From: Bacillota bacterium
Lineage (GTDB): Bacteria > Bacillota > Limnochordia > DTU087
Direction of reading: 5' to 3'
DNA: 51,174 bases
Assembly: GCA_012519025.1 (NCBI GenBank)
Contig: JAAYQZ010000043.1
Location: forward strand, 1-51,174
Position numbers and translations under genes: made by a program. Position 1 is the stretch's first letter; each line of letters begins with the position of its first letter. A model generated the notes under the pieces. That model did not search any database, was not told the DNA's origin, and worked only from the letters and a program-made list of their open reading frames with translations. This document shows, in pieces, positions 33,558 to 40,595 of the stretch.

Positions 33558-34127
33558 ATGTACTGTACGTGCTGTATAAATCCTAAAGAGCTTAAGTTGA
33601 TCTTGGAATTTCGTTTGCTGTGGAACCAGCATGCCGAGTGGACGCGGATGGCTATTAACGCCATAATATTTCAGCTGCCCAACAAACAGCAGGAAATCAA
33701 CAGGCTGCTTCGCAATCCCGTTGATTTTGGTAAGGCTTTGGAAGTCTACTATGGTAGGAAACGGGCTCACCAATTTACAGCTTTGTTGACAGAACACCTG
33801 GTGTTGGCCGCTGATATGATCGAAGCAATGATGGCAGGAAATACTCAAAAGGTCCAAGAAATCAGATGTCAGTGGTATCAAAATGGCAAGGAGATCGCAG
33901 AGTTTCTGGGCTGCACCAATCCTTATTGGTCGTATACCGAGTGGAAAGAGATGTTTTTTATCCATTTAAGGCTGGTTAACGATCTGGCAGTTACTTTGCT
34001 TGAAAACCGTTATGAAGAGAACATTCAAGTCTACGATACACTTGAATTGGAAGCTTTGGAAATGGCCGATGTTATGGCTCGAGGCATCTTGCGAGAGTTT
34101 CCCAGGCGATTCTATATTAAGTGCTGA
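33558..34127 (+). CDS. Conserved helical protein of unknown function
   Basis: 189 residues, all-helical by composition, soluble. It resembles a family I recall from Bacilli and Clostridia that is often mislabelled acetylglutamate kinase: WNQHAEWTRM, NRLLRNPVDFGKAL, LLTEHLVLAADMIEA, WYQNGKEIAEFLG, TNPYWSYTEW, a second HL motif, and ALEMADVMARGI near the end. The repeated (W/E)xxxHxxxT pattern suggests a helical bundle with two similar halves, possibly metal binding. ATG 33558 follows GAGGGGG. No kinase motif is seen. Confidence 0.75.
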   Translation: MYCTCCINPKELKLILEFRLLWNQHAEWTRMAINAIIFQLPNKQQEINRLLRNPVDFGKALEVYYGRKRAHQFTALLTEHLVLAADMIEAMMAGNTQKVQEIRCQWYQNGKEIAEFLGCTNPYWSYTEWKEMFFIHLRLVNDLAVTLLENRYEENIQVYDTLELEALEMADVMARGILREFPRRFYIKC

Positions 34128-34358: not shown

Positions 34359-34446
34359 GGAAGGGCACAGTGGCTGCGCGTTCAAATCTATTACAGAAGG
34401 AGGGTGTTTAGACAAAGTTGGTTTGCTAATAAAGGGGATGGCCAGA

Positions 34447-34866
34447 ATGAGAGAGCATCTATGTGTTGTTATTTCTGAGGACAACTCTTTGCTTAGGGAA
34501 GTAGTCATGGACTATCTGGCCACTTTTGGAATCAGCTCTATCGAAGCTGGGAATGAAAATGACATCATGTCTCATATGGAATCAGGGCTTGTAGATGCAG
34601 TTGTACTTGATTTGGTGTCCAAAAGCGGATTTGGCCGAGTGTTTCAACTCTTAGATAAGATGCAGCTGGACCCGAACCTACGGCACTTTCCGCTGATCAT
34701 CACCACCGCCTTTGATGTGAAAGATCTACACCTTTCTAAACAAACCCGACATTTGACCGATGTTGCGATTATACAGAAACCATACGATTTATGCCGACTC
34801 CGGCGCATGATTATTGAACTAACCAAAGAGACAAGGGCCTCCAAAGCCGATATACCAGTTATGTAA
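34447..34866 (+). CDS. Stand-alone response-regulator receiver domain
   Basis: About 139 residues forming only a CheY-like receiver: acidic pair E11-D12, phosphoacceptor D55 in VVLDLV, T87 in IITTAF and K111 in IQKPY. No output domain follows. The kinase partner is not in the window. ATG 34447 is preferred, 8 nt after AAAGGGG; ATG 34438 and TTG 34423 are in frame. It may act by protein interaction, as CheY and Spo0F do; Spo0F-like phosphorelay membership is a guess. Confidence 0.85.
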   Translation: MREHLCVVISEDNSLLREVVMDYLATFGISSIEAGNENDIMSHMESGLVDAVVLDLVSKSGFGRVFQLLDKMQLDPNLRHFPLIITTAFDVKDLHLSKQTRHLTDVAIIQKPYDLCRLRRMIIELTKETRASKADIPVM

Positions 34867-37949: not shown

Positions 37950-38294
37950 ATGACGGGCTTAGCAGTGATTATGGGGTTTTGGCTGCTTGGGGAGAGCATC
38001 GCCTTATTGTTCCGGCTTCCTTTCCCCGGCACAGTCTTGGGATTGGTGCTGCTTTGGTTTGCACTTGCCCGCGGTTGGATCAAGCCCGAGGTGATTGAAC
38101 GTTTTGCTGGGTTTTTGTTGGATAATTTGACTTTGTTTTTCGTTCCAGTCGTGGTAGGGGTTATAGCATACATAGAAGTCTTCAGCCGGTATTGGTTCGC
38201 GATCAGTTTAAGTCTGGTTGTAAGCACCATCTGCGGCCTGGTCGCGGCCGGCAGGGCGGCAGAATTGTTTGGAGAGACCAACAGTGACTGTTGA
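37950..38294 (+). CDS. lrgA: CidA/LrgA family membrane protein
   Basis: 114-residue protein with four membrane segments and the LrgA pattern FRLPFPGTVLGLVLLW and DNLTLFFVPVVVGVI. LrgA works with LrgB; reported roles are pyruvate transport and control of murein hydrolase activity. ATG 37950 follows GGAAGGAGAG; a longer frame back to 37767 lies inside the previous gene. It overlaps lrgB by 11 nt. No LytST-type regulator is seen nearby. Confidence 0.9.
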   Translation: MTGLAVIMGFWLLGESIALLFRLPFPGTVLGLVLLWFALARGWIKPEVIERFAGFLLDNLTLFFVPVVVGVIAYIEVFSRYWFAISLSLVVSTICGLVAAGRAAELFGETNSDC

Positions 38295-38997
38295 TGGATT
38301 TTGTATATTAAGAGAGTTAGTTGGGATGCCGATTTTCGGCGTGACCTTGACATTGTTGGCGTTTCAGGCTGCTCGTACGCTTCATGCTCGTTGCAGGTCC
38401 CCTCTTTCCCATCCCTTATTAAGCAGTAGTTTGGCTGTAATCCTAGTGCTTGGGGTTTTTCGTATCGACTACACTGCATATGATGAAGGTGGTCGAATTG
38501 TTAGCTTTTTCTTAAGTCCGGCCACTGTGGCCTTGGCTGTGCCGCTTTACAAGGAAACTGCCAGAATTGAGAAACAGAAGCTCCTAATCATTTTAAGCTG
38601 TACATTCGGTGCTTTAGCAGGAATGGCAGCTGCCGTAGGCGTGTTAAAGGTTGCCAGAGTTGATTCCCAAGTGATACTTTCTATGCTGCCTAAATCTGTC
38701 ACAACACCTATAGCTATGGAAATATCCCGAATTATCGGTGGGGTTCCGGCATTGACCAGTGTTTTCGTTGTGCTTACCGGGCTGTTTGGCGCAGTGTTCG
38801 GGCCGTGGATATTGGCTTTAACTGGTGTTAAAACACCTGAGGCAGTCGGTCTCAGCCTGGGGACGGCCGCCCACGGTATTGGTACAGGGCGGGCCCTTGA
38901 GGAAGGAGCAAAACAGGGAGCCTACAGTGGGCTTGCAATGGGAGTCACAGGGCTGATAGTAACACTTTTAGCCCCTATCCTAGCCAAATACATCTAG
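38284..38997 (+). CDS. lrgB: LrgB family membrane protein
   Basis: About 237 residues with six to seven membrane segments. Family patterns: PIFGVTLTL near the start, KSVTTPIAMEIS in the middle and SLGTAAHGIGTGRALEEG near the end. GTG 38284 is preferred, 7 nt after GGAGAG; TTG 38269 is the alternative. It is translated with lrgA as a two-component membrane complex. A long hairpin follows 13 nt after the stop. Confidence 0.9.
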   Translation: MTVDGFCILRELVGMPIFGVTLTLLAFQAARTLHARCRSPLSHPLLSSSLAVILVLGVFRIDYTAYDEGGRIVSFFLSPATVALAVPLYKETARIEKQKLLIILSCTFGALAGMAAAVGVLKVARVDSQVILSMLPKSVTTPIAMEISRIIGGVPALTSVFVVLTGLFGAVFGPWILALTGVKTPEAVGLSLGTAAHGIGTGRALEEGAKQGAYSGLAMGVTGLIVTLLAPILAKYI

Positions 38998-39010
38998 TAT
39001 TAGACTAAAA

Positions 39011-39059
39011 AGCGCAAATAGGAGTGGAGGTAAAATAGCCCTCTACTCCTATTTGCGCT
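39011..39059 (+). terminator. Long hairpin after lrgB
   Basis: 20-bp arms (39011-39030 and 39040-39059) complementary except one G-U pair, 9-nt loop, followed by TTGGGCCTTTT. Unusually long for a terminator. Confidence 0.7.
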
Positions 39060-39144
39060 TTGGGCCTTTTGACATACCATATATCAGGCTGCTTTAGGAA
39101 AGCGACCCTAGAAAAGCAAGATGAGTCGGAAAGGAACGGTATTA

Positions 39145-39435
39145 ATGGCAGAAGGCCAAGAAAAAGGCATCGGAGTTAATCAATTTTTACAGCCCTTGCT
39201 TTCCGTGTTAGGTAGACTGCCCGCGGAGGGCGATGTCTTTAAGGAGTTAAGAGAATTTGTGGATGAACATGCAGAGCAAATCCTCCAGGCGAAACCACTT
39301 TTGGAAAGTGACGGCTTGGTTGAGTTAATCGGGCGATCTGTTCCCGGGGCTAAGGCTCATGAACTGAGAGTTGCCAGTCGCCTTTTAATAGACTTGGCCG
39401 AACAATCGGTTAAAAACCGGAACCCGAAAAACTAA
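39145..39435 (+). CDS. Small helical protein of unknown function
   Basis: 96 residues, no membrane segment. Helical by composition, with amphipathic stretches (QFLQPLLSVLGRLP and VFKELREFVDEHAEQIL) and a basic end. I recognise no family. ATG 39145 follows AAAGGAA with 9-nt spacing (ATG 39121 is also in frame). First of three small genes in line before the ATP synthase operon; a TTGACA box at 39069 has no good -10. Confidence 0.6.
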   Translation: MAEGQEKGIGVNQFLQPLLSVLGRLPAEGDVFKELREFVDEHAEQILQAKPLLESDGLVELIGRSVPGAKAHELRVASRLLIDLAEQSVKNRNPKN

Positions 39436-39472
39436 TCTATATCATTTGCCTAAAGGAAAAGGGGGTTCAGGC

Positions 39473-39748
39473 ATGAGTAAAAAACGCAGGAAGCGCAGCA
39501 AACGGACGCGCTCTTTTGGAAAAATGATCAATGAGACAATGGATTCACTTGAACAGGTTAAAGAGGTGCTGGCCACAGTGGCCAGCATAGCCTCATCACT
39601 GCATATTTTAGTGGGAACCTACCGCAAAATACAAGACAGTTATGCAGTAGTGGATATGGAATCAGAGCCGGTTAGACTACAAGATACAAGCCACACCTTT
39701 GATAACATGAACGAGATCAGGGCTGTTTGTATTGAGTCGGAAACTTGA
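39473..39748 (+). CDS. Small basic-headed protein of unknown function
   Basis: 91 residues. The first 15 are strongly basic (SKKRRKRSKRTRS), followed by an amphipathic helix (about 18-60) and a polar end. It could bind nucleic acid or an acidic membrane surface; no family recognised. ATG 39473 follows AAAGGAAAAGGGGG. It lies 37 nt after the previous small gene. Confidence 0.6.
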   Translation: MSKKRRKRSKRTRSFGKMINETMDSLEQVKEVLATVASIASSLHILVGTYRKIQDSYAVVDMESEPVRLQDTSHTFDNMNEIRAVCIESET

Positions 39749-39795
39749 AAGCCCCTTCTTTCATAGAATAAGGTGATGAAAAGGGGGAGAAGCCA

Positions 39796-40011
39796 GTGGT
39801 GCACAAACAAGAACCCGGCAGGGCAGTGGATGCAACAATGATAGATGGACTAGAGGAGTTTTTCAGCGGATTGGAAAATCTAGGGGTACGGGCTGAGCGC
39901 ATTGTAGATGCAGTCCACGCCTTAGCACAGACGGTAGAGACTATGGAAGTCGATGGTTCGCTGTATACACTATTGGATATTCTAGAGAAGATACCCAAAA
40001 ACTCCGACTAG
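39796..40011 (+). CDS. Small acidic protein of unknown function
   Basis: 71 residues, mildly acidic and helical, with a VDAVHALAQTVETME helix and repeated aspartate/glutamate. No family recognised. GTG 39796 follows GGGGGAG. Third of the trio; a hairpin lies 45 nt downstream. Confidence 0.55.
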   Translation: MVHKQEPGRAVDATMIDGLEEFFSGLENLGVRAERIVDAVHALAQTVETMEVDGSLYTLLDILEKIPKNSD

Positions 40012-40056
40012 TGATCGAGACAGTGTCAGTCTGATGACATTGTCAAGGGCTTTGTT

Positions 40057-40089
40057 AACAGGCGCCTTTGTTTTAGCGGGGCGCTTGTT
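40057..40089 (+). terminator. Hairpin after the small-gene trio
   Basis: Ten-base-pair stem with one G-U (40057-40066 with 40080-40089), 13-nt loop, then GCCGTTTTG. Likely terminator with a poor T run. Confidence 0.5.
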
Positions 40090-40128
40090 GCCGTTTTGTG
40101 AAATTTAGTTCAAGCTCCGTGGATTCGG

Positions 40129-40157
40129 TTGACGATTCTTTGCTGCCATGGTATAGT
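40129..40157 (+). promoter_or_regulatory. Upstream promoter of the ATP synthase operon
   Basis: TTGACG (40129-40134), 17 bp, TATAGT (40152-40157). About 145 nt before atpZ. Confidence 0.75.
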
Positions 40158-40303: not shown

Positions 40304-40549
40304 ATGGCTAACAACGGGCCCCAGCGGCCCCAATGGCTGGCTGTGGCCAAGGGTTTGACGCTTTTAGCACAACTAGGGATCCAAATAGCGATTCCCATTG
40401 TTGCCGGGGTCATGGTCGGTGCCTACATGGAAAGAAAGACTGGATCATTGATCTGGTCTTTGGTAGGCGTTGTTATCGGGGTGATGGCCGGTCTGTGGAA
40501 CGGGTTTCGCATGATGTGGCAGTTTTTTTCTAATTCCCCCAAAAAGTGA
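40304..40549 (+). CDS. atpZ: ATP synthase accessory protein AtpZ
   Basis: 81 residues with two membrane helices (about 22-42 and 48-70) and the pattern LGIQIAIPIVAGVMVGAYMERK typical of the AtpZ/AtpQ family, linked to cation supply for ATP synthase assembly. ATG 40304 follows AGGGGGAG. First gene of the atp operon, followed by atpI. Confidence 0.85.
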   Translation: MANNGPQRPQWLAVAKGLTLLAQLGIQIAIPIVAGVMVGAYMERKTGSLIWSLVGVVIGVMAGLWNGFRMMWQFFSNSPKK

Positions 40550-40595
40550 AGTTTGGGGGCAATAAAACAAATTTTGGTGATTGGATGGAGGGCAG

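Follow-up and report, generated by a model that had tools for sequence, protein, structure and literature searches.

Small genes that stand ahead of atpB are known in the form of the AtpI and ATP-synt_I accessory genes, and the three small genes described here share that place with them. A lineage-restricted cluster of unknown genes from uncultured bacteria is a well-known kind as well. A further likeness is offered by the tiny membrane proteins of the YjcZ type in spore formers, which a micropeptide (D2) of the relatives of our locus resembles, with about 32 residues, a Gly-rich head and a single hydrophobic helix. The FESNov catalogue (PMC10849945) has gathered unknown gene families of uncultivated taxa, and the present genes appear to be of the same sort, here confined to one lineage and with a conserved genomic context. 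The locus lies in a stretch of 51,174 nucleotides, hereafter the window, which is contig C135 of a host genome of 2.40 Mb in 165 contigs that is 98.6% complete. The name DTU087 denotes a bin from a biogas metagenome study (PMC4736482).

Between lrgB (38269-38997) and an atpI-like gene at 40304 lie three plus-strand ORFs, here called A, B and C. Gene A (39145..39435) encodes a helical protein of 96 residues from an ATG start and belongs to a lineage-specific family. An alternative in-frame ATG at 39121 would give 104 residues; the orthologues begin at about the 39145 position instead. Gene B (39473..39748), also with an ATG start, encodes 91 residues with a Lys/Arg-rich head and a helix. Gene C (39796..40011) starts with GTG GTG and encodes an acidic long-helix protein of 71 residues that carries an MEVDGSLYTLL block. 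A purine-rich ribosome site precedes each of the three, and all three proteins are hydrophilic on average. Downstream of C the atpI-like gene is followed by ATP-synt_I at 40581 and then by atpB onward. Pfam confirms lrgA, lrgB, the methyltransferase gene preceding this pair, the AtpI-like gene and ATP-synt_I. Further upstream, the window contains a 189-aa ORF (33558-34127) without a Pfam match at E up to 5, of which tblastn found no copy in the stretches of relatives, some of which end short of that upstream distance. A weak receiver-domain protein (34423-34866; Response_reg below cut-off) has a tblastn match upstream of the locus in 8 of 10 relatives.

A sequence-only reading of the window had placed three small genes of 96, 91 and 71 codons, each with a ribosome site, directly ahead of the ATP synthase operon, had described a helical protein, a protein with a basic head and an acidic one, and had recognised none of them. 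All of these points hold. No Pfam or NCBIfam family reached its cut-off with A, B or C. Searches of PHROGs (best E 0.033, to a family of unknown function) and of PADLOC (best E 0.016, covering 32 residues of a model with 503 positions) with the three proteins gave nothing convincing. When 33 sequences of A, B and C were compared with Pfam at E up to 0.1, solely unrelated names appeared below cut-off, and the 11 A orthologues likewise gave sub-threshold, unrelated names only; the A of the window met no Pfam family at E up to 10. Searches for solved relatives by sequence were not convincing for A (best E 0.49 and 0.033) or for B (best E 0.48). The families of A, B and C thus appear undescribed, with no model in four libraries and no natural solved relative by sequence. 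In the leader and the B-C gap of nine loci, Rfam recognised no known RNA family at the locus. The sole Rfam match in these nine loci was a group II intron (RF00029, 45.7 bits, L045:44-126) near the start of a contig, before D1. By title or opening lines of the abstract, a literature search found no paper describing such a locus, and a search of this type does not prove absence.

The conservation of the three genes was examined in the family of the window, which comprises 6 genera and 11 genomes. In single-sequence searches of 60 genomes, including that of the window, A and B were found in 11/11 family genomes and C in 10/11, and none of the three had a match in the 49 genomes outside the family. 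By profile, A and C were both present in 11/11. Across 72 genomes of the class, each of these two profiles matched every one of the 11 family genomes and none of the remaining 61, and the C profile also retrieved B. In the GTDB collection, the A profile found 10 loci, which correspond to the ten relatives. The locus is, as found so far, restricted by these searches to one family of uncultured Bacillota. Substitution patterns within one genus (10 pairs for each gene) gave mean pN/pS values of 0.10/0.62 for A, 0.15/0.52 for B and 0.12/0.52 for C, showing that all three are under purifying selection. The sequence-only reading had looked to relatives for conservation, and its genes are indeed kept there. 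Because they are conserved we accept A, B and C as genuine genes, ORF length by itself being weak evidence.

The order of A, B and C, followed by the ATP synthase operon, is common to the relatives, and the position ahead of atp is the same across six genera. C shares a contig with atp genes in 10/11 genomes; in the remaining one, G006, the contig stops after the atp-type promoter. In G010, A and B are on one contig and C is on another. The 5' neighbours of A vary, with lrgB in 5/11 genomes (the window included), gmhA in one and other genes in the rest.

Comparison of the profiles of B and C by hhalign gave a probability of 96.9 with an E value of 1.6e-10 over 59 columns, and the two families have in common a block of the form SLH..A...Q.M..DGSL..LL. 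On this alignment, B and C are diverged homologous paralogues. A relation of A to B or C was ruled out, the profile-comparison probabilities being 3.9 and 0.3. In the window, most of the DGSL (DGS-L) block of the relatives is eroded in B, the C-terminus of B is longer than in the relatives, and the tail of C is shorter. The structural model of C (pLDDT 78.5, pTM 0.44) consists of a long helix at residues 9-53 and a short one at 55-65, and the prediction for C is a single extended helix of coiled-coil type. The C profile matches the designed coiled coil 8qae with an E value of 1.1e-8, a match which would reflect heptad character more than descent and may come from heptad composition only.

Opposite charges of the second and third proteins had been taken in the sequence-only reading as a sign that they are partners. 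The net charge of C is negative in 11/11 genomes (-6 to -12) and the first 15 residues of B are basic in 11/11 (+3 to +9), which bears out the argument for the head of B. It does not extend to the whole of B, because the complete protein is net positive in only 7/11 genomes. The proposed B-C partnership gains support from the paralogy of B and C and from the predicted coiled-coil character of C.

The model of A is a small helical bundle with a pLDDT of 70.6 and a pTM of 0.57. Foldseek found nothing for it at E below 1, the best E being 1.2. VIA-align superimposed 93 residues of the model on the KaiA C-terminal domain (PDB 1q6a, 1v2z, 5jwr) with a Z of 7.2 and an rmsd of 3.2; its three best matches were all KaiA, and the tool itself describes a Z of that level as common for helical bundles. 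The N-terminal helical domain of RsbU may be named beside KaiA for this fold, RsbU itself being outside the matches shown. Unlike the KaiA domain, A has no Pfam match, its model reaches a pLDDT of only 70.6, and Foldseek did not place it below E 1. The likeness to KaiA is therefore a weak lead.

The region upstream of A carries a footprint that is shared by the whole family. When the upstream regions were aligned on CATANNATA, about 60 bp could be matched without a gap in 11/11 genomes, and the elements followed one another as a dyad centred on AAAAT, the string TCCTATtTgC, a stretch of 15 bases of which most vary, and ACATAgCATATAgCA. In the window, the dyad is an inverted repeat at 39009..39061 with a minus-strand self-match of 83%, of which the AAAAT centre and the right arm TCCTATTTGC are conserved in the relatives. 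Of 10 centres tried for the dyad, the best gives 89 of 110 paired cells in its first 10 pairs over the 11 genomes, and the next-best gives 65. The two-block element of A lies on the plus strand at 39049..39081 and reads CTATTTG-N17-CATACCATA, the family pattern being CTATNTG-N17-CATANNATA. A search of the 11 genomes for CTATNTG-N{14,18}-CATANNATA returned 16 matches, against 3 for a reversed-pattern control. Fifteen of them fall at the locus, 10 before A and 5 before the micropeptide gene E, all with a gap of 17; the one elsewhere has a gap of 15. G001 escapes the pattern because it reads TATTTTC. The fixed spacing of the two blocks suggests a promoter-like element. A sigma-70 scan of the window region listed no site that matches the two-block element of A. 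In the whole genome of the window, the -10 block alone gave 2 matches with none in the control, and its relaxed form ACATANNATATA was found 7 times, the reversed pattern 5 times.

Relatives of the window encode, within the same locus, micropeptides with one hydrophobic helix each, and at 26 to 40 residues these fall below common annotation length limits. They are located at L036:4719-5719, at L041:2965-3972 and at the corresponding places in other relatives. D1, of 26 residues (for example MLDELLIVLLVIALAVVVVFVIEEIA), and E, of 39-40 residues with a basic head and a hydrophobic helix, both lie in the B-C gap, each in 8/11 genomes including G010. D2, of 31-33 residues with a Gly-rich head and then a D1-like helix, lies 3' of C in 9/11 genomes. 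The layout is A-B, D1, E-C, D2 in eight relatives and A-B-C in the window. The B-C gap is variable in length: the window and G003 have 47 bp between the two genes and G001 has 65 bp, and in seven relatives the distance is 398-606 bp, a range without G010, in which B and C are on separate contigs. A second two-block element, GTTTC followed by GTATAGT, precedes 16 of the 17 D1 and D2 genes.

A degenerate D pattern searched over the 11 genomes gave 15 matches in 9/11, all on contigs of the locus, with none in the control; there was none in the genome of the window or in G003. E is missing from the short B-C gaps of these two genomes, and the strict form of the D-type element is missing from the genome of the window. 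A D1-like peptide query of the latter genome also came back empty, a search of little weight as it was run without a positive control. Because the window and G003 are without D and E, these peptides are not essential to the core of the locus. Pooled pN/pS values were 0.07/0.57 for D1 (8 sequences) and 0.32/0.65 for E (7 sequences), and for D2 they were 0.15/0.77 (3 sequences of 33 residues) and 0.06/0.54 (5 of 32 residues); the 39-aa E and the 31-aa D2 were dropped from these sets. These values indicate that D1, D2 and, to a lesser degree, E are under purifying selection, E being much less constrained than D.

At a limit of E 10, comparison of four D2 and two E sequences with the NCBIfam and Pfam libraries gave sub-cut-off names only (JDVT-CTERM 0.022, small_EYxxD 0.025, Inovirus_G7P_2 0.17), with no spore model among them. 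A Pfam search at E up to 5 with two E sequences and with a D1 query blended from several peptides gave only Insulin_TMD (0.0065), below cut-off.

A terminator-like hairpin follows C in the window (40048..40092, plus strand), with -19.5 kcal/mol by script and the tail GTTTTGTGA, and is weak when taken alone. Hairpins with a T-rich tail occur 3' of C in 10/11 genomes (not in G004) and 3' of B in 7/11 (G004 has a weak one; the window, G001 and G003 have none), both being counts made without a shuffle control. In a separate scan of the window region with shuffles, promoter-like and terminator-like sites were at chance frequency, with 2 promoter-like sites in the region for 2.0 expected, and the hairpin after C was missing from its list. 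Just outside the locus, and marking its boundary, lies a putative sigma-A-type promoter of the ATP synthase operon (40129..40157, plus strand), which reads TTGACG-N17-TATAGT with TG before the -10. In the window scan alone it would be at chance level, and we consider it credible because the same element recurs 3' of C in 11/11 genomes, ahead of the first atp gene where the contig extends. No run of four T was found in the E-C gap in 8/8 loci. The terminator-like hairpins after C, together with the sigma-A-type promoter that atp has of its own, leave no sequence sign of co-transcription with the ATP synthase genes. The simplest reading would divide the region into separate units, namely A-B, which becomes A-B-C in the window, and then D1, E-C, D2 and atp.

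Two other features were observed between the locus and atp. Four loci that belong to genus g6 have, ahead of the atp genes, a second promoter of sigma-A-like form that reads TTGACC-N17-TATAGT (L041:4106-4317, L043:6426-6757, L045:1498-1813 and, on the minus strand, L042:485-769), and tblastn with the atpI-like gene of the window had no match at these four loci. In three genera an ORF of 263-287 codons, presumably a fumarylacetoacetate-hydrolase-type protein, lies between D2 and atp (L036:5940-6731, L038:9763-10557, L039:4795-5658).

How can these observations be brought together? The reading we prefer, to which we give somewhat less than an even chance, is that of a lineage-specific set of small proteins, some helical and some membrane-bound, which has a switch of its own and forms a membrane-associated assembly, possibly at a stage of sporulation or stress. 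The locus has been kept beside the ATP synthase operon and yet would be a separate transcription unit, with A-B and E-C behind the same two-block promoter-like element and D1 and D2 behind the second one. The long helices of B and C would most likely pair as a coiled-coil hetero-oligomer, the Lys/Arg head of B may contact the membrane surface or nucleic acid, and A would be a small helical partner of B and C. Where they are present, E and D would be single-helix membrane peptides that anchor or tune the assembly. The promoter type shared by A-B and E-C, the homology of B and C and the presence of membrane peptides would point to a single assembly that is produced all at once. As the -10-like block CATANNATA is not a sigma-A box and sporulation genes are found in the genome, expression at a special stage (the mother cell of sporulation, or stress) rather than in steady growth would be the likeliest. 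What has been observed is that the genes are genuine, confined to the family and syntenic, that B and C are homologous, that the upstream element is conserved and that relatives have additional micropeptides; the complex, its membrane association, the unit boundaries, the stage and the role of the locus are inferred from this. A bolder form of it, which we hold to be doubtful, would be a stage-specific membrane machine without a described counterpart, made of a B/C coiled-coil pair with A, anchored by the micropeptides, served by a near-private promoter type, arisen at the root of the family and kept beside the ATP synthase.

Other explanations were weighed against the same evidence. The locus could belong to the mother cell under sigma-E or sigma-K, its small proteins and membrane peptides building or coating the forespore surface like small lineage-specific spore genes elsewhere, a proposal that we regard as possible and rather unlikely. 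The -10-like block CATANNATA occurs in 11/11 genomes and would fit the mother-cell consensus CATANNNTA; the -35-like block CTATNTG does not appear to resemble the sigma-E and sigma-K boxes of B. subtilis. CATANNNTA itself shows no enrichment in the window (23 occurrences for 19 expected), and the two-block element is nearly private to the locus, which is not what a general sporulation sigma factor would lead one to expect. Genes for YqfD (E 3.9e-86) and a Germane-domain protein lie within the window. Sigma-K promoters are reported to combine a -35 element of 5 nt with a -10 element of 10 nt at a distance of 14-16 nt, and the B. subtilis genes assigned to the sigma-K regulon include yjcZ (PMC517825). 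Our footprint has 15 nt from the conserved TGC to the ACATA block, close to that gap. The scanned D and E peptides match no spore-protein model. Among the genes 3' of atp in six relatives, no spoIID or similar gene was recognised by eye and no sporulation promoter consensus was obtained; the upstream region of a cell-wall hydrolase (Hydrolase_2) there is sigma-A-like by eye.

The constant neighbour invites the idea that A, B and C are accessory or regulatory factors, in assembly or inhibition, of the adjoining F1Fo-ATP synthase, E and D being small partners of Fo in the membrane, and the locus does stay beside atp across the family although the genes 5' of A vary. Against this, the atp promoter follows C in 11/11 genomes and terminator-like hairpins do so in 10/11, on which grounds ATP synthase subunits or assembly factors were rejected as the leading reading. 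The 263-287-codon ORF intervenes in three genomes, the window already has AtpI-like and ATP-synt_I genes, and A and C are missing from the 61 further genomes of the class in the search. A, B and C resemble neither AtpI nor ATP-synt_I nor any of the remaining atp families, whereas the neighbours at 40304 and 40581 do match; we consider a function in the ATP synthase improbable. About as improbable would be coat proteins of a storage granule or a membrane microdomain, with phasin-like amphipathic helices and no relation to sporulation. The long helix of C and the basic head of B would suit such a coat. Against it, the 33 sequences of the three proteins brought up no phasin model in Pfam at E up to 0.1. 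Small size, charge contrast and orphan status would also be expected of domesticated phage or mobile genes, or of a toxin-antitoxin or defence pair of basic and acidic partners. The same position across six genera and the purifying selection speak against them, no relative of A or C was confirmed in viral contigs scanned with these two, one A orthologue had no match in plasmids, and PHROGs and PADLOC were without a convincing match. With no support from any of these searches, an origin from phage, plasmid or defence genes is disfavoured, and we give it very little credence.

Three nameless ORFs have thus become a defined locus, with family-restricted genes, two paralogous proteins predicted to be helical, a regulatory footprint that is read across 11 genomes, and micropeptides. 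If the stage-specific reading is true, the locus would be an innovation that marks one Bacillota family known from biogas-type metagenomes, and it would show how new membrane-associated assemblies originate beside a core housekeeping operon.

Set beside the described systems, D2 differs from the YjcZ-type proteins in that it has no match to an NCBIfam or Pfam spore model and is missing from the window. Unlike the AtpI and ATP-synt_I accessory genes, A, B and C encode on average hydrophilic proteins of unrelated sequence, and they stand 5' of the atp promoter behind a promoter-like element of their own. Beside gene families of the kind in the FESNov catalogue (PMC10849945), the present account gives for this locus a promoter footprint and micropeptides as well.
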